Of a DNA stretch of 64,000 nt, positions 1,926 to 52,579 are shown one piece after another; position 1 is the stretch's first letter, and the number at the start of each line of letters is the position of its first letter. A program made the translations under genes and the position numbers. The DNA is from Hymenopellis radicata (taxonomy: Eukaryota; Basidiomycota; Agaricomycetes; Agaricales; Physalacriaceae): assembly GCA_015501595.1 (NCBI GenBank), contig JADNRX010000281.1, forward strand, positions 1-64,000. The letters run 5' to 3'. The notes under the pieces were generated by a model. The model saw only the letters and a program-made list of their open reading frames with translations, had not been told where the DNA came from and searched no databases.

Positions 1926-3394
1926 TTAAGGGGAGCCAAACTCGTCCCAGTCGGGTTCATCAAGCGCGATGTGGAAACGGATGGTATCCTGACCTCTCCG
2001 CCACTGCCCTTGGTATCCCGACCACCACAAGACTAGTTCCCTATTCCAATAAGACAAATCATTCTCGCCAATGAGCAATTCGTCACAAAGATGAAGGCTT
2101 GGTACCAGGTTGCGGTAGAACACGGAAGAATCCAAGATAGAGACCCTCATGGTGTGCAACTAGGAAAAGCGAACTTTTAGTCACGGAAGAAACCTTCCGT
2201 TACAATTACAAAAAGACGTACCGCCAAGTTGACCATGGCTTCTTCATAAGTCGCACGGAAGTCGGTGGCAAAGTGTCGAAATTCAGGAGAAAGGATGTTG
2301 AGCAAGGTCACCCCTTGGACCGTGACCTGGTAAGACACCATGAAGTCTTCGACCAAGGCGTACAATGCAACAAAGAAAGTACGAGCCCAAAGCTTTTCGA
2401 CTTCAGACATCGAACGGCCAGGACTAATCCGCCAGATAAATGTAGTCGCACCCTACAAAGAACAATATCAGATCATTGGTAACGGCGCGGAAATAGGCTT
2501 CCGTACCAATGCGCGGATGGCAAAACGCAGCAAGGGAGAGTCTTGTGTTCCCCTAGGACCGATATCACTCCCAACCCGAATGGTGGTGGTAACATCGACG
2601 AAGCTAAGAGCCTGCAAAGGCACGCGATGTACAACGATAAAGCCTCCCAGAGACCTATGAAGTTGTAGAGCCATGCGTAGGTCTAGCAACCTGCACGCTA
2701 AGTCGTAACGAATGGGATCGCGCGTAGCCTCATCCTGAAACTCAGGGAGCAAGTGCAGCTTGAAGTTGGCGAAAATGGGTACAGATTCCATGGGTCGTCA
2801 ACGAACCAAGCAAGACTACTTATACCCGTCAGTGAATTGCAAATAACGGAAGCGGCACCATATCCATCCGTGGATCCGCAGTGTCCCCCTATTCTTATCA
2901 ATACAAGACGCACGGGAAGTGTTGCTAGGCTTCCGGAGATTGTGTACAAATTTAAGTTCACACTAAAAGAAGTTCAAACAAAAGACAACTATGATTGTAG
3001 CACTTGTCAAGTGTCTAAAGATACTACAAACATACTAGAAACTACAGACAACTCATCGCTAAGCCTACTAGAAAAGAAATATACAACAGGCTAAGCGGTA
3101 TTTTGTTAAAGACGATCCGAGTATTTACAACGTAACCCCCAAGCTCTGAGTAGTGCTAATGTATAACGAGGCCGCCCGGTTGAAAACCTGAATCTCGCCA
3201 TAGATACGGTTCAAAGCAGCAGTAAGGTCGAACCTATATTGAGACTCTGCTTTGACGGCACTAGGGGACAAGTTGCCGAGTTGGGCACTGTCTTTAGACA
3301 AGTGTTCAAAAATGCGAACCAAACGATTGACTTGATTGCGATAACCTTCAATGTAAGGTGGTGCTACGGAGGTGTCAAATTCCTTCCGTCGCAT
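1926..3394 (-). CDS. Hypothetical multi-exon protein
   Basis: This gene is not recognised. A run of leftward open frames (3394-3125, about 2961-2830, 2790-2500, 2410-2177, 2159-1926) is separated by plausible short introns, for example GTAAAT..TTTTAG after the first exon and GTATAAG..TTCAAG near 2830-2760. The first frame starts with an ATG at 3394 and the last ends in an acidic, aromatic tail (WDEFGSP). No signal peptide or known motif is obvious. The start lies only about 20 bp from the left terminal repeat of the KDZ element, so the promoter and perhaps 5' exons may have been separated from the gene by that insertion. Exon borders near 2410-2480 are uncertain because two frames overlap there. 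Confidence 0.4.
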
Positions 3395-3414
3395 TTACAA
3401 AACAATGACCGACT

Positions 3415-3467
3415 TTTCTTAAGATATGCCGATCGCGACCGGGATAAGATAAGATTTAGCTTAAGTC
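3415..3467 (+). repeat. Left terminal inverted repeat of the KDZ element
   Basis: It begins TTTCTTAAGATATGCCG and contains GCGACCGGGATAAGATAAG. It matches the reverse complement of 17154-17206 with three substitutions over 53 bp. Confidence 0.9.
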
Positions 3468-3732
3468 TTAAGTCAGTATTCTCAGTCATCTCACCGCCGG
3501 ATACCCAGCTCACAGGATCTTAAGATGCCATCTTAAGATCGTACAAAGAAGAATGCTAATCGAAACAGTCTTAAGATCCGGATCTTAAGACTTTCACCCA
3601 AGCAGAACCACACAACGTGAAACGAAGTCTTAAGATTACGTCTCAAGACAACTTTACATGAATCCTAAGTTCGACGACATCTAGCCAGTCTTAAGATATC
3701 CCGCAGCCAAACCTAAGATGCTCGACTTAAGA
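3417..3732. repeat. Left subterminal array of TCTTAAGA
   Basis: Exact TCTTAAGA occurs at 3417, 3518, 3531, 3569, 3583, 3628 and 3689, with variants at 3641 (TCTCAAGA) and 3725 (ACTTAAGA). Several lie as close pairs, such as 3518/3531 and 3569/3583. Such arrays at transposon ends usually serve as transposase binding sites; that role is inferred here. Confidence 0.85.
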
Positions 3733-3857
3733 TGTGTAACGGTTCTCCAAGCACTACACTCACCCTTTACTCATCGTCATCCGACAGTGTACCGTCAATG
3801 CCACATTCCACGTATATGTCGTCTATCAAAATCGTCTCCGCACTGATATATGGTCAG

Positions 3858-6800
3858 TTATATCCATCGGGCAGAGGAGAGAAACAACGCGACATACACA
3901 TCATAAACAGCCTGCCCGTCCTCGTCGTAATACATGGGCGCCTTCCCGTTCCGGACACGCTCACAGTGCTTGTAGAACAACTCATCCGACGGTAATTCAA
4001 GAATGTGTTCATACCCTGCCTCCGTAACGCGCCGCTTCGCACGTTCTAGATCGTCGTTATATCTGGCCGCCTGTTCCCGCGCATAGGCAACGTACCCCGG
4101 CTTCTCGGGCTGAGTCGCTTCGAAGGCAGTCGCGCAATCTTTCCAGGCATCGCGCTCCTTCGTTCGGTTTCGAATCGCGTTCAGGAACTCCATTTGCTTC
4201 CTCTCGTGGTGTTCTCGCCACCGTCGCATCTCGGCCTCAAGTCGGAACCATCGTACACGCTCTCCTATTGCAGTCTTAGCAGCGGTCTGTTATCTGACAT
4301 TGATTTCACTTACCGTCTTTCTCCCAAGCTTCTAGGTCTTCGATGTTCAAGTTGCCACGGGTCATTAGCTGATAAGGCCATCCATCACCCCGAGCAGGCA
4401 CCTTTTTAACTTCAACGTGCCATTAAAATATGTAGAGAAGAATAAGAATAAGACATACCATTCTTCTTTTTGGGTGGTTTGTTGTTTTTCTTGCGGCGTT
4501 TCGAAGGACCGGCTTCATCCTCGCCATCAAGCATATGCTTGCGTGCGCGTTCTGAATAACCTTTGCCCATGTTCGTCGTCTGGTAGTTTCGATTCCACAG
4601 ATAGGCTTGGCCATCCTGTCGGCTCGAATCCAGTGGATTCCGAACACCGTCTACTGACTTCGCGACGTAGGTGTCTTCCACGGTCATGGCGTCGAGACCG
4701 GCCAATTTCGTGTGATCCAGCGCCTTCAGATTGAGAAGGGCGATCCGGTGCTCGTTGTAGTTGGCGATTGCAACGTCGCGCCGCCATTTTGCCCGTGAGA
4801 TGCGCTCGCGCGCTTTTGTCATCGGTCCAGTGTACTTGGCGTTCTTCTTCTTGTCGTAGCCAAGAGCCAACAGTTCCCGTGCGATTAGGACTGTCAATCG
4901 TATACTCTGGAAAGCAAGTGCTTCGCGCATGGCCACCTCCTGGTCAACAGCTGGCCCAATCTTCGCCTGCGCTTCGGGTGAGAGCTGCGAAGGCAGGCAT
5001 AGGATCCACTCTTCAACTTTGCCCGTTGCCCCCATCTTATCACGATGTTTCTCCTCTCGTCGAGTCCTAGTCCGCATAAGACGATCTTTGTCCGGTTCGA
5101 GGTCCCCGAAGTACTGCTTACGCAGGGCCAGCCAGCTGTCCATGTCCTTTTTGAGTGCTTCTCTCTCACGTCGAATGTCCTCATCATCACTGGGAGAGGG
5201 GTATTTCGCGACGCGGACAATTAGCATCGATAAATGTAATCTGACAATGTGGACAGTTAGCTGAAGTGACGGAAGCGAAGAGGTTGCACGCACTGTCGAA
5301 TCTGGAAGGAGATGCCATCGCAAATCCAACTTGCCAGCTTGTCGGAGCCAACATTGCCAACACAAGCAAGTGTGAGAGGATTCGCCACGAGGAGAGATAG
5401 GACTCCATCTAGACAAGGCACTGGAGAGACATCAACATCGTGATCAAACCAGAGAAAACCGAAAGCTACCTTTCACCTCCCTATGCTTGTAAGCACTTGT
5501 TATTACCGCGTTCTTGCCTTTGCCCGTCTGACGATAATGTTTGCCGCGCTGATGACGTTCAGGCCACTGAGCGTCCCATTGCTTCGTATCGGCCATATTT
5601 TGTTGGCTCGCGATCTGGAATTCACCTTTATATCGAAGGTACATACTTCGGCCATATCGGACCTCGCGATGAAGTTCGTTCGCTAATACCAATGCGTCAA
5701 TAAGGCTCTATCATGCATAATGTCGACTCACAGATGTTGATCTCCTTCAGATAGTTCCAGTCCATGGCGACATGGAAGTACACCTCATGCCCATGGTGTA
5801 AGTTCATCTTGAAGATCATCGGCGCGAATCCATTGGACTTCGGCCAAAAGTGTTCGCAGGTCTCGCCGTGGAAATGACCGAGTCCCTCCATGTAGAAACA
5901 TCCGAATCGGTAGATGCAGTCACCAGCATGGGAGTAAACGTGTGCCGCGTTGATGACTTTCGTAGCCTTCTTAATGTGTTCCCGCATGGATTGGAGATCC
6001 TTGTGCTGGAAGCGATGGTCCACGTGCACGCTGTACTGACAATTGGAGTCGTAACAGAAACGGCTTGGCTGGTCTCGTTCCTCGCTGGGGACGTCCGACG
6101 TCGAGGGCGGAGGGAATCCACTGCGCTCATACCCAAGTTTGACCACCATGTCATTTGTCTTCTGGCTGTCATAAAATTAGATTCTGATTTGTCGAGGAGC
6201 AAGGCGCTACTCACTCTTCGCCCTTAGGGAAATCAGCAGTGGACTTGACAAAGACATGTGAGCACTGGAATTGACATATTCCATTGTACACGCAGTCCGC
6301 GTTTCGTACATGCTGCTGCGAGGCGGCCTTGAGATTGTTGCATGGAATTTTCTGCGTAGACTGTCAGGACATTCATACAACAAATGAAGAGAAGACGAAC
6401 CTCGCTACCGTTCGTCGGCGACGGAATCGCAGTTGCTCGATACGCCTCCATCTCTTGCGTTAGGGGCTGCAGCCCCCGACCTTTCAAAAGGTCGACATCC
6501 ACAACGTCCGAGTTCATCGTGCCCATCGCCATCTTGAAGTTCCCGTCTGTTGTATTCTCGGCTGCGATGAGATGGCTACCATTCATGTTAGACACTGTCA
6601 GAAGCGACCACCGATGTGAAAGCTTACTCATATTCTGGCGGGGTTGATTGCCAGTCGTCCTCCATACTAACGCCACGCTCCGGACATACCGGGCAATAGA
6701 CCAGAAGAGAATCTGCCTGGCGAGTGGGGAAAGCAAGTTTATTCTTCTCAAAGATGTAGCCAGTTCGACGTTCGTCCTTCAAGAGGTTCCAAATACGAAG

Positions 6801-7872
6801 AACACGTCTCAACTGCTTGCTGACGTCCTATCAGCAAAAATTAGCCACCAAGCTCACAAAGGAAAGTCGATGTACAACTCACAGGAGCCGCCCATGGATA
6901 TTTGTTGTCCGTCATCCTTTGCAGGAACGAATTGATGTCGTAGGTGTTTGCTGTACATTCGAGATGCAAAAGTTGAACATGTCGCAGCAGTCGGAATGTG
7001 AAGGCGAGTCCCGGTCTTGCTGTAGACGATGGGAATAGACTGTCGTTCATCAACTGGTCCAGTCGGTTCGGGGAGGTGTTCAAATCGCAGCCGCAGAACT
7101 GCAATTTCGTATCGTGCACGCCGTTGACATCAACGATGATCATTTTGACGGGATCGTGAGGGACGGGACAGTTGTCGCCGTTGTGGCCCAGATGAGGAGT
7201 AAAGCCAATGGTGTGTATGTCCTGGCGCACGAAGAACCCCACTACTGGTCGCCATACTTGAACCCAGTGATGCCACAGACTTCGATGTCGAGAAATGAAG
7301 CAAGTGCGGCAAGTCAGACGCCTGTTCTTGCACTCGCCGCACCGCACGTCGCGGATTAAGCCACTTCCACAGTCGCAAACAGTATTGACGCCGTCGGCAA
7401 CTTCGTGACCCATGAGAAGGTCGTGAAGCCTGGGAAGAATGTACATGAACGATTCAATACATCGGCGGGTCTATAGAAATGGGCAAGCATCACTAACTGA
7501 AAGCAACTGTAAGAGAGAGCCACATACCTGTGTTTTGCCCTCATGAACTACTTCCTCTGTCTCATCGTCATCCTCGTCAGCCTCGCGCTCCATGTCTGGC
7601 AAAGCCCCCTCAGACTCTTCATGAGTGACCGGCATCCGAGGTGCCGCCCGCAAAGGAGCACGGGGGGCGGGCTCTGTCACTTTCGTTCTAATCTCCACAC
7701 CTCCGTCGGCGTGGACCCGCCTAAACCTAGACTTCTCAGCCGCATGGGCGCGGATGGTGGCTGCAGTCTGGATAGGTCCGCCAGGCCTCATGAGTTTCGC
7801 CTGCTCTCTTTGGCTCTTCGCCACGATTTCGGCAATCTTTGGAGGTAGTGGCGTCGGTTTCGCTGTAGACAT
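3858..7872 (-). CDS. KDZ transposase with CxC2-like cysteine cluster
   Basis: This is the transposase of the surrounding element, expected to cut and join DNA at the terminal repeats in the nucleus. The ATG at 7872 opens an acidic, proline-rich exon (7529-7872). The next exon (6883-7470) carries the cysteine cluster (CDCGSG, CGECKNRRLTCRTCF, then H-rich residues and DVNGVHDTKLQFCGC), typical of the CxC2 module found with KDZ transposases. Downstream exons hold the catalytic core: an early Asp/Cys region (NADCVYNGI, CSHVFV, FPKGEE), then CYDSNCQYSVHVDHRF (about 6050), HVYSHAGDCIYRFGCFY and the late acidic motif GLGHFHGETCEHFW (about 5850). A helical, charged C-terminal part (5200-4440) ends in a lysine/arginine-rich nuclear signal-like stretch, and the last exon stops at 3858. 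About seven to eight exons with short introns keep an open frame, so it may be functional. Confidence 0.85.
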
Positions 7873-8009
7873 GGTGGTGAGAGACTGAGTGAGGTACAAC
7901 AATAGTAAACACACCTTTGTTCAGACGAACTGGTCCACAATGCAGTCACGTGGTGTGCGCCACTCAGCATCGGGCGCTGATACTCAGTCAAGGTTGTTCG
8001 TGTTTGGTA

Positions 8010-8036
8010 CTCGTATTCGTATTCGTATTGGTATTC
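8010..8036. repeat. ATTCGT microsatellite
   Basis: There are about four near-perfect copies of the hexamer ATTCGT between the two leftward genes of the KDZ element, 3' of the 303-aa gene and 5' of the transposase. Confidence 0.7.
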
Positions 8037-8125
8037 GGCAAGAGGAGGATAAACTGAGATACATTGGTACATAAAGTGTTGTGGTCTACAGCGAGAGTAC
8101 ATAAGTGTCCATAGAAATGGTTCAA

Positions 8126-9137
8126 TTATTCAATAAACATCTTCTTGAATTGCTTCCAGCCACACCCTTCGGCAAATACGTCAAGATCGTCGATTTTCAT
8201 TGCGACGACCTTTGAGGTTTTGCTGACAGGGAATGCCAACTCCCAAGGTGACATGCGCCAGTCATGTTCCTGAGGTACGTATCGCCGGAACAGTCCTTCG
8301 TTCGTGATACCGGCCTCGTGAAGGCGTCGAAGATTGGCTGCCACGCCAAGCTTCAACATGCCCTGAGGGTCGGCTTCGACGGCAACTTGAACGGGAAATG
8401 CTTTGGCCTGGGAAGAGTTTGAGTGATGTGTACGGCAGATAGAAATTGAAAACTCACCGTACGCCAAATCAACAGGATGATTAGAACTTTGGAAGGCCCT
8501 GCCTCGCCAACGTCATTTTGGACTGGTTCTTCGTCGTCCGAAATATCGATCACCTCGAGGACCTTTGCCTTCTTGGTGGACGGAGCATCTTCATCTGCAT
8601 CCTGACGGGCTCTCTTGGTAGCGCCGCGAGACCGGCGTGCCACAGGCGTAGGGGACGAACGAAGGGGGGAAGATGGAGGGGTTGGTTGGATGTCGGGCTG
8701 AGACTGGGAACGCGGAGTCGGGAGAAACATGCGTCGCATCACCCAAAGAGACTTCAATTCCGTGTCGTTCTCCAGGACGTCTAGGGGAATACGTTTACCG
8801 ATGTGATCGACATAGCCTTTGACTTTCAGGTGGGGTTCAGCCCTTAACTGTAGCAGAGTCAGACAAATGAATTCACGACAACGGCTTAGAAACATACAAA
8901 ATAAACCCATCGGCCCACATCCTCAAAGCCGACATCTCCTGGAACAAGCTGCTTGGCAGACCCATTCGACATATGGGGCGCCCGTCCGATGCGTTTAGTC
9001 GGGGCCGTTGGATAGTCGAGGTTGAGCACGGACCGAAGGTGGATTAAGCGCGCGCTAATTGCTTGATCGACACCTTTGCGTTGGACGGTTTTGCCATCGG
9101 GCTTGGGGGTTGCGGGGGTAGACGGTGCGGTAGACAT
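8126..9137 (-). CDS. KDZ-element cargo protein, 303 aa, unknown function
   Basis: This gene is not recognised. Three exons join cleanly: 8898-9137, 8458-8847 and 8126-8407 (80, 130 and 94 codons). The two 50-nt introns (GTATGT..CTACAG and GTGAGT..TCCCAG) are both in phase 0, which gives 303 residues. The middle exon has a proline/serine-rich stretch, a basic KRAR segment and an acidic motif (VIDISDDEE) that resembles a SUMO-interaction motif, so a nuclear protein is likely. The last exon is compact and hydrophobic (LGVAANLRRLHEAG, WELAFPVSK, GWKQFKKMF) and looks folded. It is transcribed in the same direction as the transposase and starts at a divergent promoter region shared with the Spt5-like gene. 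A role in transposition or its control is only inferred from position. Confidence 0.75.
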
Positions 9138-10085
9138 GCTGGAGGATAGATTTCGAGATGAGGAGGAGAATGAGTCGTCTTGGACATCGCAGCCTTTATA
9201 TGTGCAGAAGAACAATGTCTGGCCAAAGTTAGTGAATTACCATATGGGCGACAGAACACGGACGAACATTTTGAAGACAATGGGCAGAATAAGCCTAAGA
9301 TGAGATCGAGGAGATTGGACCAAGTAAGCTAATTGCAAAATCAGTGCATTGTTGACCGTGGACGAAGACAAGACGCACTGCGCTCGCCACAAAAGACCAT
9401 ATCGGACTTCAGCCTAAAGCTAGACACGACAATAAGACGGCTAATCTGTCATCAGTTCAATGGTCCACAATGAATGCGCCACTGACCTGACATTGTAGTC
9501 TCGGGCGGTCCGCAGCCCGCCGCACGAATAATGCACCTCATCGCGACCAGTGCGCTGCTGGCGGCGGTTCATGCGGCGTGCTTCGTTGCCACCCAGTCAA
9601 TGAAGGCGTGCTGCCTTTCGCAGTTCCTCGATCAATAAAAACCGTTCTCAAGACGCAATTTACACTCCATGTACTCTAGGCTGCGTATGTACATATCTAC
9701 GTCGACGCTCACCAACGCGGCCGCCACCAGCAGCAACGATGCTGTGGTGGTGGGGACGAAGGTGGGAAAGATTGTGGTCGTGTTTGGCACCACCACTTGT
9801 GGTACGCCGCAATCGGCATCGGGCCCTTTGCCATCAATAAGCATAGGGACACGGTCCGATGTTCCATTTGTGCCGCCGCTGATGTCAGCGGCAATTTTTC
9901 CATCTCTCCGACTTTCCACCACTACCTAATAATTGGGCAGTGGGGTGCGAGTCGGTAGGTCCGCCAGCCTTACCGTAGTTATAGCTATCGCTAATATATC
10001 AGACCTTAGTCGATTTACTTGAGAGAAATAAGACGTTATCGTCCCGTAGTATACTAGATACGCCCAGACACGCCGCGCAATTGTT
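9138..10085. promoter_or_regulatory. Divergent intergenic region inside the KDZ element
   Basis: This 950-bp stretch separates the leftward 303-aa gene from the rightward Spt5-like gene and must hold both promoters. It contains one 96-codon leftward open frame (9922-9632) with a central hydrophobic, alanine/valine-rich segment; there is no further support that it is a gene. No other feature is visible. Confidence 0.5.
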
Positions 10086-13000
10086 ATGTCCACCTCTCTA
10101 TTCCTTGATCTTGAGGCGCAAGAAGACCCTGACGTCGATGACTTGGATGTCGCCGAGCTGGAAGGAGGAGACGATATCTTTGAAGGTATGTTGCCGCCTC
10201 AGTGCGGCGAAGTGCTCACCTCCGGCAGATTTTATCGATGACAGCGAGGACGACACCGGCGACGACACAGTGCCAAGCGCCACACCCAGACTCGAGCATG
10301 CTCCCAAACGCATGAGACTGCTGGACGATTTCGATCGAATGGAGTTGCGCATCCGCGCCGAACTGGCTCAGAAAGGCGCCAACATTCCTCCCGACCTACC
10401 CCGCCATCTCTAGCTCGTGATATGTCCCCCGCTCCCGAGTCGACGTCATCTTCGCGGGCCCAGCCAGTGCTTGTCCCCACAGATGCTCCGCAACCTCATA
10501 ACTCCGTTGAAGGATTCTCCGTTCTGCCAGCCATCCCCTCATCTGAGGAGATATGGCAAATGGCGTTACATCCGAGGAATAATGTCATTCGTTATCGTCC
10601 TCGAGTGAGTCTCCGCCGTTTGATCAATGTTATTCTTCTCATAATTTCTGGTCAGTTCGGTTTGGCTCATGTGGCACGAAACAACATCGGCGAAATGATT
10701 CGTGCCGCTGGACATCAGGAGGAAGCAGATCCCGCCTGTGATTTCGACGATGTTGAGCGCACAGTCGTGGAGCTGTGTCGCCCCGAACAACACATCGCCG
10801 CCGTTTGGATCGACAAAACTACATCACGATTCGAAAGCTTCTACGTATTTACTACGGCTCCTCGCGTTGCGCCCGTGCTACGATGGTTCGATCTCCATTT
10901 CGCTCACTCCCTCCTCACCTCCCAGCCAATCTTCATCGAGAACGTTTCGGAAAAGAACACCCTACTGCGCGACTTCTACGGATCCCCGATTCGTAAATGC
11001 AGCACAGGCTGGGTGACTTTGAACGGTGGAAGGTATCACGGAGACGTTGGCCTGATGATGGGACGGGGACTATGGGTCGATGTGATTGCCATTCCCCGCT
11101 TGAACGTGGATTGGAGCTTGCTCAGCTCCACCTCTGACCTGAACAAGAACGGCAAGCGTGTTCTACGCTCTCACCTCCCTCGTTTCCCCAGCAATCGTCG
11201 TCCCCCTGCACGGTTATTCCCCTACCAAGAATTTACCGTTTCTGTGTCTAAACCTTCCCGCAACAACGAGAGCTGCCAGCTACAGTACTACACCGAATTC
11301 GGAAGTATCCGCTTTGCCGGCCCATTTGTCGTGTTATCCTGCAGACGAGACAAGCTGTCGCGAGCGGCAACCATACGCGCAGACCTTCGGCAGATGTTTA
11401 TCTCGGCAGATCATCCCATCGCTGCCTGGTGTCGCAGGATGCCGGACGCCACGTATCCTGATCATCCCATGCTACCTCCCGTGGCCCATTGGTCACTGGA
11501 GCGATTCGAATTAGTGGAGGATCTCGTCAGTGGGTTGCAAGGACGCGTCTCGCATGTGCAGGAGAAGGGGCAAATTGCTTTCGATGTAACGACTTTGGAC
11601 GGAGTTTCCCATCATTTGGAAGTGCCCTGGCGTCAAGTTCGAAAGGTGTTCAGTGTCGGAGACTTCGTATCTGTATCATCGCCGTTACGGGAACCGAAGA
11701 CTGCTTGGGTCATTGCAGCTGGTACCGAAGACGAGATTCGAGATGACGTTGCCTCCATTGTTGAGCGGCAGAAGAGGCGCGTCGCTGAACGACCCGAGGA
11801 ATTCAAACCCGAATACATCTGGACGGAGGAGCAACAAAAGAAGGTCATCCGGTATCGACAAAGATACTTGCAAGTCATGACACATCACAGAAATTTCCAT
11901 GGCATTGTTTCAAACGAGGTCAGTACCTTACCTTCACTGCATGCCGTCGCTTATTTTTCTCAATGTTAGTTTCTATTCGTCGAGAAGAACGCGTGTGTCA
12001 AAGTCGAGCCCGACCTTTATATTCAATCGACATATAGTGAACAAGAATCCCTCCATAAGCCGCCGTCCACTCCTTCGGAGAATGACACTTGCTTAGGGAC
12101 TCGCCTGCAGATTAGATATCTGAAAGCTCGAGCCGAAGACGCCTCGTCTGGACTTCGCTATCCGAATCCGGACAAGGGCCCCGTCCCACCTTCTGTTGTT
12201 CTCCGAGGTTTTCCCGCCTTCGTTGTAGAGAAGGGTTACTTCACTGGGCGGGAGCCCTGGGTGGGACGTGCAGTCATTATTCAGGGCGGAGAGTTCAAAG
12301 GACGGAAGGGTCATGTGTGTGGCGTCAGCGTGCATAATTGGAACATAAAGGCGGGAGTGGAACTTAACAGGAACGACACCGCTCTCGTTCTGGCGGACCA
12401 GAAATCCATGAAGAGAAACGAGAGTGGACTATGGGTTCACATCACGCTCTACGAAGGCGGGAGATCGACCAAGCACGACGTTACGGTCAAGTATGACCAT
12501 GTTATCGATGCTGAGTACGTGTCTATTAGTAACAGCCCATGTCATTCTGTCTAACTCATTAAGATAGGTCTTCTGCACCTCTTCGCATAGTCCGCCCGTT
12601 GACATCTCGTCAAGTCAAAGCCGGGTATGTGGGCAATCGTTCGTTCTACCTCGAAGAGGTGACTCGGATGTTCATGATTGGACGGCGCGCTTTCTTTCAC
12701 TCAACCGTTGGCGATACACCTTCTGTGAAGCCTCTTCGCCGACAGGACCCCATGGCCCCTACTCTTCCACCGCCGACCGCCATACAACACGCTGAGTCAC
12801 CCCCCGCTGATCCTTGGTATGCGAAAGACTTCCTCGTGGGGTGGGACCTGCGTACGATGGATTCCAATTCAAAAGCTCAGCGACCAGCACCTATTGCTGT
12901 TCGGGTGCTGCGTTCTTCTTCTGACACTATCGAAATGTTTAAAGTTGGTGGCAATGGGACCGTCCTGCCTACACCACTCGACGGCAACCGTTATCGTCCA

Positions 13001-13342
13001 TTACACCCAGGGAAGAAACCCAATATCAAAAGTCGTTGGGTTTGCTTCAGAGGTCAACATGAGGGTACCTTTGTTCGTGGCATTCGCATCCAGCATCGTG
13101 CATCGACACCATTCGAGGAGTTTGACGCAAACGACATGGATTGGTATTGTTTCGCTGTTACCCCGCGTCGAGGGGCGAAGGACATTGAAACCAATTTCGA
13201 GTTGTGGCCACATGACGAAGACCTGGTGGTAATGGCGGACGATGGCGAAACCATGAAGGCCAACGAAGAGTACAGCCAAAGGAAGGAGGGCTCTCGTGAC
13301 GGTGGTCGTGGCATGTTCTGTGATGGCGGTAGACGATTCTAA
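10086..13342 (+). CDS. Spt5-like NGN/KOW protein (transposon cargo)
   Basis: The product resembles the transcription elongation factor Spt5. The ATG at 10086 starts an acidic N-terminus (DPDVDDLD, FIDDSEDDTGDDT) like that of Spt5. An NGN-like region follows (AAVWIDKTTSRFESFYVF and onward, about 10790-10990), then a clear KOW module (TGWVTLNGGRYHGDVGLMMG followed by VDVIAIPRL, about 11000-11110), a second (about 11510-11730, QGRVSHVQEKGQIAFD, FSVGDFVSV) and a third (WVGRAVIIQGGEFKGRKGHV, about 12260-12320, ending in KYDHVIDAE). Introns seen are 10186-10228, 10605-10655, 11919-11969 and one starting near 12514. The frame of exon 2 stops at 10411, while the next frame opens just before 10422. 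This needs either an unrecognised splice or means a one-base lesion, so function is uncertain. The short, charged last exon ends at 13342. It is not the host's housekeeping Spt5: the order of modules and the C-terminus differ. Confidence 0.7.
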
Positions 13343-13629
13343 TCAAAACATGCCGTTTTTGTATACTACGAATATCTGCCTGTGTATGACTACTCTGTAC
13401 ATTAATGAACTCCTTTCACATTCGCCGGTGTGATCTCACACCTAAGCCTCACAATCCTTGGATACACGGAAGGGGGGTATTGCCATGCGCCACACCGAAG
13501 TCATTGTTGTTTGTGGGTTTCGTCACGTGCGCCTTTATATTGATCGAAAACGACTGGTCCACACTCACCATCACAACTTTCTGTTGCAGTGCGTTCCCAT
13601 TTCTTTGCGCCTGAGGTGGAGACTTATTG

Positions 13630-14123
13630 ATGACAGAGATCATGGCGCGTCCCAACAAGAAGATGAAATTTGACGAGCGCGAACGTTTCCAAAGGACCAT
13701 CCTGCCTCACCTGCGCATAACGAAGAAAGCTCGCGGTGCTCGCAGAGAAATCAAGCGGACGACAGCTCTTCTCATATTCTACTGCCCAGTGAGTTCAATG
13801 ACTGTTTGAAGTGATTGCAATTGATGCCCTTCTAGGACGGGGAGCAGCGTAGTGTGCTTCTAACGAACACACCTCTTCGCATTTCCCTCGACGAACATTA
13901 CACGCAAATTGCCGCCGCTGGAGTCCCGAAGAGACTACAATCACGACGCTTGCACACAGCTGGGAAGTACATGGTGGGCGAAGACGACTGGGAACCCCAT
14001 GGTTGGGGACAGTTCTTCACGGTCTCGACAGACGTGAACAAGCCCGTTTTCTTTCGAATCGGAGTAGGGCCCCTCCCAGAAGATTGGCTCGAAGACGTAG
14101 GCTCATACTTGGACGCTCTGTAG
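13630..14123 (+). CDS. Small KDZ-element cargo protein, 148 aa
   Basis: This gene is not recognised. Two exons (13630-13788 and 13836-14123) are joined across a 47-nt intron (GTGAGT..TTCTAG) in phase 0. The N-terminus is very basic (MARPNKKMKF, KKARGARREIKR), which suggests nucleic-acid binding or a nuclear signal. The second exon is mixed and ends in an acidic, aromatic stretch (PLPEDWLEDVGSYL). It lies between the Spt5-like and HMG-like genes in the same direction. Two ATGs in frame (13630 and 13642) could serve as the start; I chose the first. Confidence 0.65.
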
Positions 14124-14450
14124 TACACATATTTTTGCAAAGACCAGTTTACTAGGTACCTATGATTCTATAGCTTGCGCTGTACTATTGTCGCTGTATT
14201 TACTATTGACATTCGATGTCCTTTGATCGAAGAGAGCGTGGACCGGAGGGCCTTTGATCGAAAGTGCGTGGACCGGTTACCATTTATATTCGCTTAGTTG
14301 TGGACAATGGAAAGGTGGCGTTACCCAAATGGGCCACGCTGAACAAAGACGAACGGCAGGCAAGTCATTTGTTTTATTGTTATGCTTTAACCTTGACCAC
14401 CACCTTCAGCATAGGTTTGCCTTGTCTCCTGCTCCCCATCAGCCACGACG

Positions 14451-16945
14451 ATGAAGCGCGCTTACAACCTCAACGATGACAATCCCTGGATCGCCGACCC
14501 CTACGACCCGAGGAAGTTGCCAGAATCCTCCCTTCGCAAAATCGATGGACGCCAGAGCGAGGCTAACCGCTTCGACCGATACCAGTTAACCTTGATGTGG
14601 TACCTGATGCCAGACTGGGTACACCAGGTCGCCAAACACAAGGGGAACGCGCCTGCACTGCGAAAATGGAAGGGCAAAGCCTCGAACGCGCTGCTCAAGC
14701 ATCCGGTCTTCGAGACTTTAGTGAACCCTGCCGGAGCAACGGAAGATGCGAAGACACAGGCCAAGAAGCGGTGGAAAACAGTACGTGCATTGATGTAACT
14801 GATCTACACATGAATGACAAGATCCACAGAAAATCGAAAAGTTTTTTCAAAACAAAAAGAACAATACCATCGACCGAGGGAAGAACATCAAGACCTTGGG
14901 CGGTGAGGACGACGACGAAGACGAAGACGGAGGGGCAACGAGCGATGAGGAATCGGAGGACGTCGACGAGAAGAGCGCGAAGATTGTGCCATCCGGCGCG
15001 GGTGGAGGAGGATTGCTCAAGTTTCCGTTGGTTATGTCAGGCCAACGTCTCTTCAAGTTGACGAACTGGGCGGATATTCAAGAGGAAGCCGCCATCGCGA
15101 AGGACTCGGTGAAGGATAGCAACAACGGTGCGGCTAGTCGTAAGGCTACGAGCGAAGCATGGCAGAAGTTGTCCCCTGAGGAGCAGGAGGCGTATACAGA
15201 GCAAGCCAAGGAGTTGGGTGATCGAGACAGGTAAGTGTTTACTGATTCGCACAGTGGTCCGTGACTGAAGACATGTTTCTTGCAGCAAGACTACCGCGCT
15301 GCCGCTGTCGTTACAGAACCACATCGTGAAATTGGGCAAGGAGGTCCAAGCCTTTGGCCCTACTGCAATGGCACTGTTGTATGGCTATCGTGATAGCATA
15401 TCTGGTAACGTTGAGTATGGAATGTAAGTTACCTTTTCTTCAGAAGTGTATCCGATTTGACAACAGCTTGCAGAGCGGAGTATAATGGTGCCACTCCCGA
15501 CAACGAACAGCTGCATTTCAGTGACGTCTTGCCAACCAAGGTGTACGACGACATCGAGGACTGGTTTCATGCAAATGTTCCCCGTACGTGACATGATTTG
15601 AATTACGAGCGAGTTCTAACATTTCTGTGTAGGGCTCAAAGTAAAACAGCACCGGTTTGCAGAGTCGGACGATGGAATTCCTCTGTTTCCGAGCATCGAC
15701 CTCGACAACGCGACGGGCATGCAGCAGGAGAGTACGATGAAGGAGTACCTTGCGGCGTTATGGGGTAAGATGATTTGGTCTATTTTGAGGCATCGTACTA
15801 ATACAAACGACTTAGAACATGCACATTCTAACCGCCGTGTTCCATTGGATCTGGACGCTATCATTTGCGATCCGGACATCTACTACGACACCGATTTACT
15901 TCCCGAACTGCACCTGTACTTGACCGCTGCACCTGGTCGTGCGCTCAGCAGTGCTCGCGTTACCCTTGTGGCCCGACTCATTGAAGACTTCGGCGAGACA
16001 ACCGTAACACCGTTTCGCTTTTTGACGCCTGAGGAGTCTCCGCGGAAGACTGCTGAACCATTGCCTGGCTCGCCGAAGAAGGCTTGTTCCCAGGACCCAG
16101 GGACTCAACCAACATCTGCCTCACCTGCGAAACAGTCAACCCCGGAAGGCATTAGAGCGTCCCCGGCCAAACGTTCCGAGCGAACAAAGAAGAAGGAACG
16201 TGAAGAGGAAACACGTCGGGAAGAAGAGTTACGGGCCGAAGAGAAGCGTGCTGAGGAGGAGAAGCGTGCTGAGGAGGAGAAGCGTGCTGAGGAGGAGAAG
16301 CGTGCTGAAGAAGACAAGCGTGCTGAGGAGGAGAAGCGTGCTGAAGAAGAGAAGCGTGCTGAAGAAGAGAAGCGTGCTGAAGAAGAGAAGCGTGTTGAAG
16401 AAGAGAAACGCGTTGAGGAGGAGAAACGCGTTGAGGAGGAGAAGCGTGCTGAGGAGGAGAAGCGTGCTGAGGAGGAGAAGCGTGTTGAGGAGGAGAAACG
16501 CGTTGAGGAGGAGAAGCGTGCTGAGGAGGAGAAACGCGTTGAGGCGGAGAAGCGCGTTGAGGCGGAGAAGCGCGTTGAGGCGGATGAGAACCATGAAGAA
16601 AACGAGACGCCTACTGAGGACATAGCCGATGAAGTGATGGACGATGTTGAGGACGACACCCAGAAGCAACCGGCGGAGGCGCGCTCGAGTAGGAGAAAAG
16701 GTGGCGCTAGCAAGCGCAAGGCCGACGACAATGTTGACAACAGGGAGGCAAAGAAAACCCGTGTGACACGGGCATCAGCGAAGGAACAGGCACCGGCTCA
16801 GAGGGAAACACGTTCGACTCGCACGGCAAAAAAGACTAGCAAGGAGCTACAAGCTGAAGAGGTTGCGGAGGTGAAGCAGAAGGCCCGCTCTGCGCGGAAC
16901 GGTGGAGGGAGGGGTGGAAGAGGGGGAAGGAGTTCTAGACGATGA
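14451..16945 (+). CDS. HMG-like protein with KRAEEE repeat, 746 aa
   Basis: Six exons (14451-14780, 14830-15230, 15286-15423, 15474-15583, 15633-15764, 15816-16945) join in frame to give 746 residues. The early part is basic and tryptophan-rich, followed by an acidic linker (EDDDEDEDGG). A segment around 15120-15220 (ATSEAWQKLSPEEQEAYTEQAKE) has the pattern of the second half of an HMG box (W-x-L-S-x-E-E-x-x-x-Y), so DNA or chromatin binding is likely. The last exon holds proline/serine-rich sequence, 19 tandem hexamers of the KRAEEE type that should form a long charged single helix, basic stretches and an RGG-like tail (GGGRGGRGG). HMG-type proteins have been reported with KDZ elements; a role in target choice or packaging is inference. 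The stop at 16945 lies just before the right subterminal array. Confidence 0.75.
16244..16585 (+). repeat. 19 tandem 18-bp units encoding KR(A/V)E(E/A)(E/D)
   Basis: The in-frame minisatellite lies inside the last exon of the HMG-like gene. Units differ mainly by AAG CGT GCT versus AAA CGC GTT codons and drift to KRVEAE at the 3' end, as expected of unequal exchange. All three plus frames and some minus frames stay open across it, so the long antisense frames here are artefacts of the repeat. Confidence 0.95.
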
Positions 16946-17206
16946 TTTTAAGTCATTGCTCATCGTTGTTGTTCGATCTTAAGATCGACCTTAGCATGCC
17001 GTGGCTTACATGTTTAGATATATCTTAAGATACTGTTGTTTTCTTCAGCCGGAGTCTTGAGACTGAACTTAAGATTCACGCATCCTCACAATCTTAAGAC
17101 AGATGTATTCTGGGGGTGCGACTGAGAGCGGACGGTTTTTTAAGCTAAGATATGACTTAAGCTAAATCTTATCTTATCCCGGTCACGACCGGGATATCTT
17201 AAGAAA
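16946..17206. repeat. Right subterminal TCTTAAGA array and terminal repeat
   Basis: Exact TCTTAAGA occurs at 16977, 17023, 17092 and 17197, with variants at 17055 (TCTTGAGA) and 17067 (ACTTAAGA). The terminal inverted repeat is 17154-17206 and includes a perfect hairpin-forming block (ATCCCGGTCACGACCGGGAT). Confidence 0.85.
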
Positions 17207-17539
17207 CCTTGGTCAGGTTTCATTATTGACCACGCCGGGGCGTGCTGAGGTTAAATCCACCACAAAAAGTGTGCTACTGTTGGTCTGCGTGACGCCGAAC
17301 GCCCAGGCAAGCGTGGTGCTGGATAGAAAACACGAAGCGCAAGCGACTAGACCCTACGCGCTGCTCCGGATCCGGACGAGGAACACGTGGGCGACGTAGA
17401 GGCTGTGGAAGTTAGTTTACACCCAGGAAGAATGGATTCGTCACGGAAAACTGGTGCGTGTATTCCGCTTTCGTGTGAGCCCTGGATGGCTTTTTTCGTG
17501 CACTTACCTTCACGCCCAGGCAGGACCTTTGATGCTCGA

Positions 17540-41329: not shown

Positions 41330-41790
41330 TTGACTCGTCTTCAATGGCCACGGTTAATCCTGGAGAAACGCTACGCGAGTTCTTCTTTTCCTTGTCTTCC
41401 GGCGCATTTCCTTTCAGTGTTACTCGGGCGTCCCGGTTCGGGCTGCAGAGAATATCGCGTCTTTCACTGTCAGGGGGATGTTCGTTTTGATTCCCTCAGT
41501 CACCCCGATGTCGATAAACACCATCGTGGCGACGTGATTTACTGCCCGGAGGACGATGTTCATTTTCCCACCTTGAGCGTCGAGCAGACAATTAGCTTTG
41601 CCGCCAAGCCCCGGGCGCCTCATCTTCGTCCGGGCTACCGCAGACCTGACCCCGATCGCGATCTTTTCTCAAACGATCGCGTAAGACCCTCGTCGGCGGT
41701 GCTGCGATTCGCGGACTCAGGCCTCCGGTGCAGAAAAGAAACGAGGCTCCATTGATCATGGGCTGGCGATTACGAAAAGGCTTTGAAGGA
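41330..41790 (+). pseudogene. Relic of a PDR-type ABC transporter
   Basis: The rightward reading shows LLGRPGSGC (Walker A), GDVRFDSLSHPDVDKHHRG, DVIYCPEDDVHFPTLSVEQT and ISFAAKPRAPHLR. A degraded signature region follows about 100 nt later in another frame. These are hallmarks of the first nucleotide-binding domain of fungal pleiotropic drug resistance transporters, which have about 1,450 residues. Only a small part is present, with at least two frame breaks. It runs directly into repeat R4. Confidence 0.8.
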
Positions 41791-42960
41791 AACGGCAACG
41801 GCTGCGGATGTGTTCCCTGACAGCGTTTGCCTTACAGTGTACACCATTTCTGTCGCCGATGGTGACTTCCGAGATTTAGAATCAATCATGATTGGACACT
41901 CAGGTTAGCATGACATTCCTGTTTGTGTTTCTGTGGGGAACTCAAAGGTTTGATACAGTTAACTGAAGGCACGCCGGAGTAAAGAGAAGACAAAGGGTCA
42001 TTATACGTGTTATAAAAGGTGAACCTCAGCCTCAGTTCCTCACAGCCGCCTCAGTTCCTCAAAGCCACCCATCGCGCCACCAAATATTTGTTTAAACCAT
42101 GTCCCTTTTCTTTGCCGTGATTTTCGGGGACCTCGCAGTAGTTAGGGTCACTGCGGACATCTTTATTGCCATCCCACTCTCCGAACACGCTACGGTTCGT
42201 CTCACATTGTCGTGCTTGTAGTCAGAATCATTGACATTCTTATAGGATTCAAGCGCCGTCGAACGTTACATGTATAATATAGCCACTTCAGACCCGCGGC
42301 CGCTTCTCGTCGCGTTTAGGAGCAACGGCCTCACGTTCAGTGCAAGACTGATTACTGCCCAAGAACATCTTCCGGCGCTCACTCCATACATTACCGACAT
42401 GGACTATGTATCCCATGTCGTAGACATCGAAGACGCGGAGGGTTACAAAGCCCAAATCACGTTCATTATCTTTTGCAGTGTATGCGGGATGATTGTGGGG
42501 GGGTGTGGAGCTCTGCTTCTCAAGGTTTGTCTTCTGTCCAATACCTGCGGGGAGACTTGTTGACTTCGTCATCTCTTGAAGTCGCTAGCTACATCTGCTG
42601 TCGCTGTGTAATAATTGCGTTGTGATGATCATGCTGTTGTTGAATATCCATAACATGCATCAGAGCGGCTGGAACATGCATTTACGCTCCATCCCGCCAT
42701 GTATCCTCTTCCCATGCACCACGCATCGCAACCCCGGACATCGCTCATCGTCGCCGCCACATTCATGCCTCTTGATAGGCCGTACCATCCATCGCAAGCG
42801 ACAGGCTCATCTTGGAGCCATAGCAAGAAGTAAGACATGAGTAGATGATCGGGCTGTTCGAACCCCATGGCCGTTGGACTACCAAAGTTTTTGAATTTCT
42901 TCTCGAACATAAGTTGCTCTCCTCATCGATTCGGAATAAGTGTACTGCCCTGGAATGACG
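41775..42960 (+). repeat. Duplicated block R4, copy 1
   Basis: This 1.2-kb block occurs again in inverted orientation at 57525-58665. It contains a 97-codon frame (42270-42563) preserved in both copies (MYNIATSDPRPLLVAFRSNG and onward, with a hydrophobic stretch near its end), so that frame may belong to a real but small gene. Small indels separate the copies. Confidence 0.85.
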
Positions 42961-43323
42961 CGTATGAGGAACATGGGTAACGTGCGTAAATTGAAACAGG
43001 TTTTCATACGTGCCCACGTGACTGAAACACGATTAATGATTTCGGAGTCTGGTCGATACCCACCGAGCTAATGCCGCCTTAATCATGCATTCATAATACA
43101 CCATTATATATACAGGTTGGTGTTGAACAGTGTGCCTTATGAGGGGGTCTGGAATTGTGCTAGGGTCAGATGTGTGTGCGCGACCGGCTAAAGTCTAGAG
43201 GCCTCATATACAGAAATCCTACAGTACAGATCCTCCCCCATCCAAAGCGCAAATAGCAATGTCTAATCCCTCGTCCTTCATCTCATGCAAAGCAACGATG
43301 GAAGCATAGCTAAGATTGGGAAA
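42961..43323. other. No gene seen
   Basis: This is a short spacer upstream of the 3' end of the F-box gene, with no repeats or motifs recognised. Confidence 0.4.
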
Positions 43324-44910
43324 TCATGCCACACGAGAAGCTGCCCACCGGAACCACGCCCGCCGCACAGTGCTCTTCCGAGAATGCAGCATGTTGACCA
43401 GATCCGGGCCAACAAATCTCCAATCTGCCCAATAGATCCAAGAAACGAAATCAAAGCTCTCAAGGTCGGGGACGAGTCGATGCCGCTCTCCCTCGACCAC
43501 CTCCAACAGGCTCTTCATCAGTTCAGCGAGCACATGCTCAATGCGCCAGAATTGATGAGCCATGGCGTCCGAGTCGGTATAGAACCCGATGCCCAGATCC
43601 GTCAAGCATGGGACGAGTTTAAGGATATCAGCGAGGGGCTCTCCAGACAATGCTGAATCGCGAAAATAAAGTCTGGTAAGAGAACACTGCGATATGTCGA
43701 GGAAAGGGGTAATGAAAGGAAGACATGACAAGTGGCTTATGTCTCCAATGTCAAGGGATAAAAGCGCCGGAAGCGACAGATAGGCCAAAAGAGTAGGGTC
43801 GTTAATAGTGAGGTGTGTAAGGGAGGTGTTCGAGATGGAAGGTTCCACCGTCTCGACTTGAAGATCGTCATCATCCATGGGTCCAACAAGATTGGCCTCC
43901 ATATAAACAAGATCCACACAGCGTCTGATGACGAAGAGGGGAGGGATAGGGCAGGGAAAATACACGCTGAACTCCGAGGTGAAGGACGTCAACAGTACGT
44001 AGTTGAGGCGCAGGAGCGCGTTTTCGACTGAGACTTGCCTCAGCTTTGGGGCCACCGCAAATGCACTAATGAGGGGAGCGTCGTCCTCTCGCCAAGCTTC
44101 CACGAGGGACTTTGGGTCACACCCTACAAATGACAAGTGCCTGAGCTCCGGCACCTTCCCTTGTACGCCTTCCAAATACATTCCTAGTTCACTAGGAACC
44201 TCCAACGATACATATGCCCAGCGTACCGAGTGGGACATTAGCACGTCCAACAAACTATGGATGCGGCTTCGATTTCCAACACAGTCATTGAACTGTATCT
44301 CGACATGCAAGTCCAGTTTGTAGGATCCACTGTAAAGCAGGGCGGTTTGAAGAATCGCGATCGGGTTTTTATATCTGACGAAAGTCGGACAACGGTGACC
44401 AAAACCTCCACCTCGGATACAACCGCATCCGCCGGACGTGATTCGGAAGGTCGTCCAAAGATGAGGGTATCGTGACGCAGAGCGCCAACTGCTACAGACG
44501 CGACTGGCAGCCCAAGCACCTTGTGTAGCATCGAGAACCATAAAGCCAGCATCAGGAATGAGCCTGAGAAAGATTTCCTGTAGGACCTCCTTCGGAAAAA
44601 ATCTAATAGTAGAAAGTGCGCCTGAAACCTGCCGCGAACGATTCTGCAACACGGCGCGGTCGTCCTCCAACTGTTCGAGTGCATGAGTCTTTTCGCAATC
44701 TGGGGATGATAGCAGCAAAGCGATTTCATCGTCGAGACGCGTGAGGCGCGTGGAGAACAGAGCATGGAGTTCGTGCAAAAGCTGGATTTCCACGTCGGAT
44801 GGAGGGTCGTTAGAGGAAAGCAGGTGTTCTAGAGTAGAAGGGACCGTAGGAAGTGCATTTAGACTGACTTGGAGCGCCCCGGGACGCATACCCGTCGCCT
44901 GGCGTCCCAT
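43324..44910 (-). CDS. F-box-like protein, 528 aa, intact
   Basis: A single uninterrupted frame runs from the ATG at 44910. The N-terminal part (residues about 25-95) is a coiled coil (ELHALFSTRLTRLDDEIALL). An F-box-like segment follows from about residue 103 (FFPKEVLQEIFLRLIP, then WAASRVCSSWRSASRYPHLW), and the C-terminal 350 residues show irregular leucine-rich repeats (LRHLSFVGCDP, LTHLTINDP, LLSLDIGD, SLTRLYFRDS). F-box proteins of this layout are greatly expanded in agarics and are thought to bring substrates to SCF ubiquitin ligases. Length and layout are typical. It is the best-preserved ordinary gene in the window. Its substrate cannot be told from sequence. Confidence 0.9.
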   Translation of the reverse strand: MGRQATGMRPGALQVSLNALPTVPSTLEHLLSSNDPPSDVEIQLLHELHALFSTRLTRLDDEIALLLSSPDCEKTHALEQLEDDRAVLQNRSRQVSGALSTIRFFPKEVLQEIFLRLIPDAGFMVLDATQGAWAASRVCSSWRSASRYPHLWTTFRITSGGCGCIRGGGFGHRCPTFVRYKNPIAILQTALLYSGSYKLDLHVEIQFNDCVGNRSRIHSLLDVLMSHSVRWAYVSLEVPSELGMYLEGVQGKVPELRHLSFVGCDPKSLVEAWREDDAPLISAFAVAPKLRQVSVENALLRLNYVLLTSFTSEFSVYFPCPIPPLFVIRRCVDLVYMEANLVGPMDDDDLQVETVEPSISNTSLTHLTINDPTLLAYLSLPALLSLDIGDISHLSCLPFITPFLDISQCSLTRLYFRDSALSGEPLADILKLVPCLTDLGIGFYTDSDAMAHQFWRIEHVLAELMKSLLEVVEGERHRLVPDLESFDFVSWIYWADWRFVGPDLVNMLHSRKSTVRRAWFRWAASRVA

Positions 44911-46176
44911 CTGATCATGAGCATTGACAAAGTCAGGAAATCATCGCTGTGAATAAGGCGGAGAGGTCTTACCATGAGTCTTTGTATGACGGAGGATATC
45001 GTGGTAATTGAATTGTGTTGCGATCTAGTGTCCATGTCAGTCAGTCAGAAATGCGTTGAAAATACATGAGACGTACAAGGCGATGTTGAGATTGAGCAGA
45101 AACAAGGAGGATAACAATTATGATAGTGAGATCCCACTCTTATAGACATCGCAGACGCCAAATCATAACAAACAGAGCGATCCATTGTTCAAATGACAAA
45201 TATACCATCTTCAGAAAAGGTAACTGCAAGCCCATTTCGAACCTGCGCGGTCCACAAAGGGTTGGACCGTCCTCAAACAAAGTGATGTACACCGGTACTT
45301 GGCATTTGAAGGTCAGCCTGGTAGGTACAAAAACGACAACAGCCATAATGGCTGCCTGTTACATCCTTACCTCGAGTCCTTGGCCTTCATCTTGCGTTTA
45401 TCATTAGTTTTATTGAGTTAGTAGGGGCTCTGATCATGAGGAACGGGTGAACGAGCTACAGGATGAGCATTACGGAAGCCTACGCGGCTCATGATCAGTG
45501 GTCAACCCTAACGCTGATGTGATAGGTCGAATCCCACGGCTCTCATTCCCGCTACGCTAGATCTTATTGCTACGCTAGACACTACAAGTTAAACCATTAA
45601 TCGTTATCGGACTTCGTGTTCATGTAATCGCATTCCATTTTATGACCGTTGACCGTCCATGCTTCTTTAGAACGTCCATACGTGCAGATCCCAATAGCCG
45701 CTACAGATTAGTTCGCACGCCCTCGGGTCAGGCACTGGCAAAAAATGTCAATCCTCGTACTACAAAGAGGGGGACACTTACTTCTGGATTTCACATCGCA
45801 GTTCGAACAGACTTGGCTTCGTTGACACTGTAATGCGCAGGGTATATTCCTTGCCGCTCATCAGACTATTGCCGATGTATCGCAACACCTATAGCTTTGG
45901 ACACAACTCGGTGAGGGCCCGTCACACGCCTTGATGCCAAACGACAACGGTTGGGCGGTTCAACAGTGTGTAGACACGAGAACGACACGAGACAGCGATG
46001 CTCCCTAGTAGTAGGATGTCGTAGAAGTTTTGCGTACCACGTTCTTCTGCACGTATGTCTTAAATGCAAGGTCGCCACTCACTTTCACGTCACGTAGCGA
46101 GGGGCACTAGTTTCTAGCAGGCTCAGTAAACACCGCTTCCATTAAAGCTTACACAAGTACTCTAATATTCTCATAG
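44911..46176. other. Spacer, no gene seen
   Basis: It contains the F-box promoter region, an approximate copy of 37005-37120 (45365-45480), and otherwise only short frames. Confidence 0.4.
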
Positions 46177-49857: not shown

Positions 49858-49887
49858 GGCCGTCGAGTCGGGGAGGCGAAAACTGGC

Positions 49888-49950
49888 GTGATATCCTTTC
49901 ACACAGATGTGATATCCTTTCATACAGATGTGATATCCTTTCATACAGAT
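49888..49950. repeat. Three tandem 21-bp units
   Basis: GTGATATCCTTTCATACAGA is repeated three times just upstream of the start of the coiled-coil gene (the first unit has CACACAG). The repeat stays open on the minus strand but lies before the chosen ATG. Confidence 0.9.
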
Positions 49951-50423
49951 GTGAAAGGCGAGGTACCAGGGAGGAACAAAGCAAGAAAAGAAAGAAGCGA
50001 TCCGGTCCCAGGTTCCTACCTGGTGTTTCTTTCATACCGACACATAAAACTCGACCTCAATGCTCAAGGAGCGGCAACACCGTGGGCGCACAGTCGGGAA
50101 CTTGCGGACACGATAAGCTTGGGCCGTAGATTAGATTACTTACCTTCTTAATAGCACACCTCCATAAGATCACCTCATGTTTCTTTCATCTGGGAACTTA
50201 CTTTCTTACTCACGGTTTTATCCCTTCACACGTGGTATAATAGCACGTCGTGTCTTTCATTCACTTACAATACTTATACTTCTCGCTTGTTGTAGTCTAC
50301 ATCTATCGAAGAACCCATTCGCACACGCACACATCGTCCGAACTCGGCTCACTGCACTCAGAGCAGTTGACATCTCTACACCGCTTTCACGCCAACACCA
50401 ACGCCACACAGTACTTTACCGCA

Positions 50424-52554: not shown

Positions 52555-52579
52555 GCAACTTCAATGTCCCACATACTTA

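Follow-up and report, generated by a model that had tools for sequence, protein, structure and literature searches.

Background

Most of the published KDZ families of DNA transposons considered here create short target duplications of 7-8 bp, and some KDZ elements are known to carry an extra gene for a TET/JBP dioxygenase. Here we describe a 13,826-bp element of the mushroom Hymenopellis radicata that we are virtually certain is a large DNA transposon of the KDZ superfamily. It is located in a 64,000-nucleotide stretch of DNA, called the window below (GenBank assembly GCA_015501595.1, contig JADNRX010000281.1, positions 1 to 64,000). The window is contig C609 of the genome we searched, which comprises 75.5 Mb in 1405 contigs.

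Kyakuja elements (Kojima 2025, PMC12730594) resemble the window element in their KDZ transposase, their occurrence in Agaricomycetes, their 7-bp duplication, which is also found in relatives of the window element, and their 5'-CA end. The two reference families are described as having CA..TG ends, no terminal inverted repeats (TIRs) and a TET/JBP gene, and this extra gene is thought to act against silencing (PMC12730594). In contrast, the window element has imperfect TIRs of approximately 65 bp, with CA at its KDZ-side end and AT at the other. It carries no TET/JBP gene, and has instead an Spt5-like gene, an HMG-box gene, a gene we call G2 and a small gene. A search of the whole genome for the Tet_JBP domain returned three matches below the cut-off, none of them on C609. 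Zisupton and Dileera differ in their 8-bp duplication (PMC12730594), which is 7 bp here. The KDZ1-3 elements of Cryptococcus neoformans (PMC12810828) are alike in their length of about 9-11 kb and in having TIRs and a KDZ transposase with a cysteine cluster, and they have been shown to move. These elements have duplications of 8 bp (KDZ1) or 4-8 bp (KDZ2 and KDZ3), TIRs of 139-241 bp and a CxC1 cluster (PMC12810828), whereas CxC2 is the stronger match in the window element.

More distant comparisons can be made with plants. VANDAL elements of Arabidopsis also encode a chromatin-acting protein of their own, VANC, which binds rapidly diverging tandem repeats in the non-coding parts of transposable elements (TEs). 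However, VANDAL elements have a Mutator-type transposase, VANC is unrelated to the proteins described here, and it works through loss of silent marks (PMC10398659). Similarly, SPT5L/KTF1 is a specialised paralogue of Spt5 with a link to the chromatin of transposons, but it is a host gene that promotes silencing (PMC3111484), whereas the paralogue described here is encoded by the transposon. Any parallel of the present cargo to plant VANC, or to the TET/JBP dioxygenases that other KDZ elements carry, is putative and would be a functional one. We know of no Spt5 homologue in VANDAL elements.

Neither 'Spt5' nor 'HMG' occurs in the main text of the Kyakuja paper (PMC12730594) or in the text of the Cryptococcus KDZ paper (PMC12810828). 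KDZ elements with an extra chromatin gene (TET/JBP) are known. Among the titles and abstracts listed in searches of the open literature, Spt5 or HMG cargo is unreported for KDZ elements; the article said to have founded the family, published in PNAS in 2014, lies outside that scope. Known transposon cargo includes enzymes thought to erase silencing marks (TET/JBP) and plant anti-silencing proteins (VANC). If our reading is true, a transposon that encodes an Spt5 paralogue of its own would represent a different strategy that acts on elongation itself, and transposon cargo would account for some of the numerous Spt5-like genes found here. Since the genome has multiple diverged elements with this cargo, as well as a separate Spt5-type gene bearing an NGN domain on contig C851, whether the cargo helps or hinders silencing is directly testable.

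A KDZ transposase and four further genes between matched ends

The original prediction described a complete 13.8-kb element (3415 to 17206) with matching 53-bp ends, motif arrays, a full KDZ transposase and four cargo genes. All of these components are present and the unit is real, although its true ends lie 17 bp further out on each side, as discussed below. The inverted repeat formed by positions 3415-3470 and 17206-17151 extends over 56 bp at 93% identity. The local score of one end against the other is 95, compared with at most 30 across 2000 single-base shuffles of one end. The motif TCTTAAGA is present 11 times in the window, compared with 0.79 expected, and all 11 copies fall within the two terminal arrays. 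Of the 23 CTTAAG copies in the window, the element's first 350 bp contain 10 and its last 290 bp contain 6, whereas its interior has none and the other 7 lie outside it.

These arrays are family-specific. CTTAAG arrays are shared by the window element and a relative on contig C14, with terminal densities of 25-26 per kb and no copy in the interior. In the relatives on contigs C685 and C462 the motif is CTCAAG, at 20 per kb terminally versus 0.62 inside. The relative on contig C465 has a number of shorter motifs, and neither type of array is clear in it. Such arrays would fit binding sites for the transposase, or targets of a TE-specific regulator by analogy with VANDAL elements.

Genes were modelled with a splice-aware script of our own. 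It joined KDZ and G2, which are both on the minus strand, into one model, and these were split by hand. Within the first 626 residues of the transposase, Pfam recognises both KDZ (E 1.2e-23) and CxC2 (E 6.7e-26) above their cut-offs, and a KDZ domain with its associated CxC cysteine cluster is the mark of the superfamily. Both minus-strand genes are under constraint when the window is compared with C14 at a synonymous divergence (dS) near 1.6: the ratio of nonsynonymous to synonymous rates (dN/dS) is 0.075 for KDZ (1126 codons) and 0.18 for G2 (283 codons). G2 also retains the sequence EVID(I/L)(S/T)DD in all three diverged copies, which we take to resemble a SUMO-interaction motif.

Recurrence of the gene set in diverged elements

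The four additional genes very probably belong to the transposon, as had been proposed, because diverged elements elsewhere in the genome contain this cargo as well. One of these is C465:35823-71486 (35,664 bp), which starts with CAGGGAG, ends with TTTTCAT and is flanked on both sides by an exact CACTGGT. Within 38.5 kb around it, its two ends (63 bp, 86%, E 4e-13) are the only inverted repeat to reach E 1e-6, and all five genes are located between them, along with a second KDZ fragment and other open frames. A search with its joined flanks yielded 11 matches, of which two are the flanks themselves, five cover one side only and four cross the junction at 67-78% identity (C465:88138, C465:27088, C696:215249 and C979:13085). 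We take these four places to be paralogous uninterrupted sites and not alleles. A search for empty sites had been suggested in the original prediction; the C465 element has these matches across its junction, and no empty site was found for the window copy. The target of the C465 element is itself repetitive: several relatives, 77-85% identical, occur on this contig (27-106 kb).

All five genes are likewise present in C685, where the G2 match is weak (E 5e-4). Its HMG-side end lies near 23756 and its likeness to C462 stops at 45075; C462, which is 98.5% identical to it over 14.5 kb, shows the KDZ-side end near 108487. Each of these loci displays a single end, the one in C685 being of the same type. 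Beside the HMG gene of C685 (27862 downwards, L019) is a gene for a chromodomain-like protein (E 2e-5, 24.8 bits versus a cut-off of 25.1 bits); C685 also has an extra gene that, by eye, resembles one in C465. On C14, a KDZ gene (81% identity) and G2 are followed by the start of the contig. The transposases of the five-gene elements are 43-47% identical. Because the same five genes occur in C465, with its matched ends and duplication, and in C685, the set is old and appears to move as a unit.

Linkage was assessed genome-wide from counts alone, as uniform placement and independence of copies do not hold. An Spt5-like gene is present within 13 kb at all 13 loci of the small gene, all 4 of the HMG gene and 5 of the 7 G2 loci, two of which are weak matches (C1090 and C675; E 4.4e-4). 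The two G2 loci without a nearby Spt5-like gene are C14, at the contig start, and C1090, next to a KDZ gene. At least 24 Spt5-like loci remained after merging by hand and, among the matches listed, 12 of 24 have a KDZ gene within 9 kb. For the other 12, no KDZ gene within 9 kb is among the matches listed. An Spt5-like gene is also present in the window outside the element. KDZ domain matches number at least 166 in the genome, counted exon by exon and therefore representing fewer genes.

Two of the 12 KDZ-adjacent loci are doubtful. At C1175, an Spt5-like piece of the C473 type is situated beside a KDZ gene of the C816 type, and the locus resembles adjoining fragments of two elements. C675 is discordant, with an Spt5-like gene 86% like that of C685 and a KDZ gene that groups with C741. 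Codivergence of KDZ and Spt5-like genes over seven loci is unsupported: the Mantel correlation is 0.50 with a near-copy included (180 of 5040 permutations as good) and 0.10 without it (243 of 720).

Seven two-ended copies of 2.6-4.2 kb have the same ends and none of the genes, an arrangement that the original prediction had named as a potential refutation. For both of its refuting outcomes, ends without the genes and cargo genes without the ends, the result is mixed. As gene-bearing elements the short copies were rejected, since they share only some 75-90 bp of DNA per end with the window element and tblastn detects no cargo in them. They look like ordinary non-autonomous derivatives, and as such leave the transposon reading intact. 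Three protein searches for relatives in other species, with 8000 candidates scored in each, gave only Hymenopellis proteins or nothing, and the viral contigs searched contained no relatives.

Probable Spt5 and HMG homology of the cargo

We consider it highly likely that two of the cargo proteins are homologues of Spt5 and of HMG-box proteins, respectively. The Spt5 assignment is based on colinear similarity through the KOW modules to Spt5 structures in PDB. The NCBI model of the window protein (P0001), which like our main reading frame begins downstream of the acidic N-terminal piece, matches Spt5 at E 2.8e-7, P0002 does so at E 1.8e-4, and a profile of five Spt5-like relatives reaches E 8.4e-8 in three colinear stretches. 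The profile match starts next to a region that is presumably the end of NGN. An NGN domain had also been proposed for the window protein. Of that claim the KOW part stands by way of PDB, whereas Pfam detects no NGN in the protein and reports KOW only below the cut-off.

Other results temper this assignment. The three profile stretches are each weak singly (i-E 0.08 to 24), P0004 reaches just E 0.066 against PDB Spt5, and the C473-type relative has no Spt5 match in PDB. Moreover, the frame is apparently broken near 10413, by the start of the gene, although this apparent discontinuity might also be an intron that resists modelling. The possibility that this is the host Spt5 gene was rejected, as the single genome match to Pfam Spt5-NGN is on C851.

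Between the window and C465, the proportion of nonsynonymous differences (pN) is 0.28 for the Spt5-like gene, 0.39 for KDZ, 0.40 for G2, 0.47 for the small gene and 0.54 for HMG, with synonymous proportions (pS) of 0.74-0.80 that are at or near saturation (0.74 for the Spt5-like gene). Thus, constraint is tighter on the Spt5-like gene than on KDZ, and of the five genes it is loosest on HMG. Young Spt5-like pairs exhibit weak constraint, with dN/dS of 0.69 for C685-C675 and 0.84 for C741-C457. A value of 0.74 for C685-C462 was discarded because its pS is far above what 98.5% DNA identity allows, probably due to a mix-up of frames.

For the HMG-like protein, the original prediction was borne out by Pfam, which finds HMG_box_2 above its curated cut-off in the window protein (E 6.6e-5), at the cut-off in C685 and below it in C465. 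All five PDB hits of a profile of the three HMG copies are HMG boxes, with weak E-values of 0.022 to 0.26. On the other side, the window protein alone finds no HMG box in PDB better than E 0.71, and a protein database search with 8000 candidates scored found no match to it, not even from Hymenopellis radicata.

A second, better-preserved Spt5-like gene is located in the window outside the element (53607-57287, minus strand), with an acidic N-terminus like that of the first, a Pfam KOW match above the cut-off (E 2e-10) and a match to PDB SPT5 5oik (E 1.8e-7). It lies in a 16.9-kb stretch (41763-58670) bounded by 1.2-kb inverted repeats (90.9%), which also contains an F-box-like gene and in which the window's KDZ protein finds no second KDZ.

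Possible functions of the cargo and competing explanations

We propose that the KDZ transposase would bind the subterminal arrays and move the whole unit by cut and paste, presumably with the 7-bp stagger suggested by the duplications. The Spt5-like protein, through its KOW modules, the HMG-box protein and G2 may influence elongation by RNA polymerase II and the chromatin of the element, and might in this way maintain its transcription and accessibility in the face of host silencing. In fission yeast, heterochromatin is limited by Spt5 (PMC10659198), and a specialised plant paralogue works at silenced loci (PMC3111484). An Spt5 paralogue encoded by a transposon, partnered by an HMG-box protein, could thus help polymerase to pass through silent copies, or could displace the host factor. 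As a whole, a transposon with transcription- and chromatin-acting cargo is the explanation we moderately favour, and the anti-silencing role, which is drawn by analogy, we regard as plausible yet somewhat doubtful. More tentative still, and on balance rather unlikely, is an elaboration wherein an old counter-silencing module of mushroom KDZ elements combines a putative Spt5 paralogue acting on RNA polymerase II, an HMG-box protein and a SUMO-binding partner. Together these would drive transcription through silenced copies, with the arrays aiming the proteins at the element's own ends and one relative adding a chromodomain protein.

The same proteins could serve transposition itself and have no part in silencing, with the HMG-box protein bending DNA so that the two ends of a 14-36 kb unit meet in synapsis, and with G2 and the KOW protein as structural components of the transposition complex. 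HMG-box proteins do bend DNA, the terminal arrays suggest a large nucleoprotein complex, and KOW modules need not bind polymerase. However, the Spt5 proteins that were matched act on RNA polymerase, and seven gene-less copies with the same ends have spread, which is indecisive given that proteins can be supplied in trans; we judge this alternative unlikely. It is quite improbable, in our estimation, that the cargo genes are passengers, acquired from the host in a single capture and retained although the element gains nothing from them. Gene capture is common in large DNA transposons, gene order and orientation differ among C465, C685 and the window, and young Spt5-like copies are weakly constrained, but the five genes recur in elements with transposases this diverged, and KDZ, G2 and the Spt5-like gene are constrained over the longer divergence. 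A last alternative is that neighbouring genes and TE fragments of a TE-rich region were enclosed by the ends by accident. The absence of a duplication at the window copy, its chimeric flanks and the mixed KDZ and Spt5-like pieces of C675 and C1175 might be cited in its favour, yet C465 holds the five genes between matched ends with an exact duplication and relatives that match across the junction, and C685 repeats the set. Accidental enclosure is consequently rejected, unless the C465 locus is misassembled, and we deem it extremely improbable.

Boundaries and history of the window copy

The end sequence of the transposon described above matches 19 places in the genome: 2 in the window, 14 that form seven pairs 2.6-4.2 kb apart, and 3 single ones. 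In 6 of the 7 other two-ended copies there is an exact 7-bp duplication located 17 bases beyond the ends first given on each side, and this offset is precise in five copies and one base off on one side in C21. The C1384 and C21 copies have a left flank in common and may represent one insertion event. Because these duplications sit at a 17-bp offset, we place the true ends at 3398 and 17223, whereby CAAAAC starts the KDZ-side end and TTTCAT closes the HMG-side end. Breakpoints in the flanking repeats provide independent proof: the left-flank repeat is continuous past 3397 in C982 and C507 (GCATTTA, then AGAAAA), and two C1171 copies of the right-flank repeat diverge exactly at 17224, where other sequence precedes.

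The window copy itself departs from what a straightforward insertion would leave. There is no target duplication (GCATTTA on the left versus TATTGAC on the right), the flanks derive from two different repeats, and none of the 11 genome matches to the joined flanks crosses the junction. As there is neither a duplication nor a match across the joined flanks, this copy does not represent a simple insertion, but a hybrid between two copies, a product of aberrant transposition or an assembly join. We therefore think it likely that it was rearranged, whether because two copies recombined, because aberrant transposition lost one flank or because the assembly joined two insertions. Flanks from separate repeats, each meeting an exact element end, speak for such a history, whereas the gene content agrees with that of other elements, so the interior need not be hybrid. 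This reading concerns the history of the window copy alone and is compatible with the favoured explanation of the element.

Table 1. Features of the window element and genes of the C465 relative (window positions unless a contig is named).
Feature	Position	Strand	Remarks
Whole element	3398..17223		13,826 bp; ends from the relatives' 7-bp duplications and flank-repeat breakpoints
Left flank	3098..3397		Part of another repeat, uninterrupted in relatives; five other genome places
Left subterminal array	3398..3750		10 CTTAAG
TIR left arm	3406..3470	+	65-nt arms, 89% complementary with 17151-17215
KDZ transposase gene	3767..7872	-	Many exons; Pfam KDZ and CxC2; gene model split by hand
G2	8126..9137	-	About 295 residues, no known family; model split and joined by hand
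Spt5-like gene	10087..13342	+	Main frame 10422-13342, 921 residues; acidic N-terminal piece 10087-10413 in another frame
Small gene, unknown protein	13630..14123	+	148 residues, two exons; gene model
HMG-box gene	14451..16945	+	763 residues, long K/E/R repeat tail; gene model
Right subterminal array	16940..17223		6 CTTAAG
TIR right arm	17151..17215	-	Pairs with 3406-3470
Right flank	17224..17523		Part of a different repeat; C1171 has two full-length copies, and two short partial matches lie elsewhere
C465 KDZ gene	C465:36182-41275		
C465 small gene	C465:60575-60853		
C465 Spt5-like gene	C465:62646-65501		
C465 G2	C465:67027-68094		
C465 HMG-box gene	C465:68756-70316		

The seventh two-ended copy, on C1362 (43196-45846, L012), lacks a target duplication. 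In its right flank, CTATTGACTACG, it is similar to window positions 17224-17236, TATTGACCACGC, and no longer similarity was found between the two. One of the sub-cut-off Tet_JBP matches is located on the same contig (C1362:47510-47935), approximately 1.7 kb from this short copy of the window transposon.

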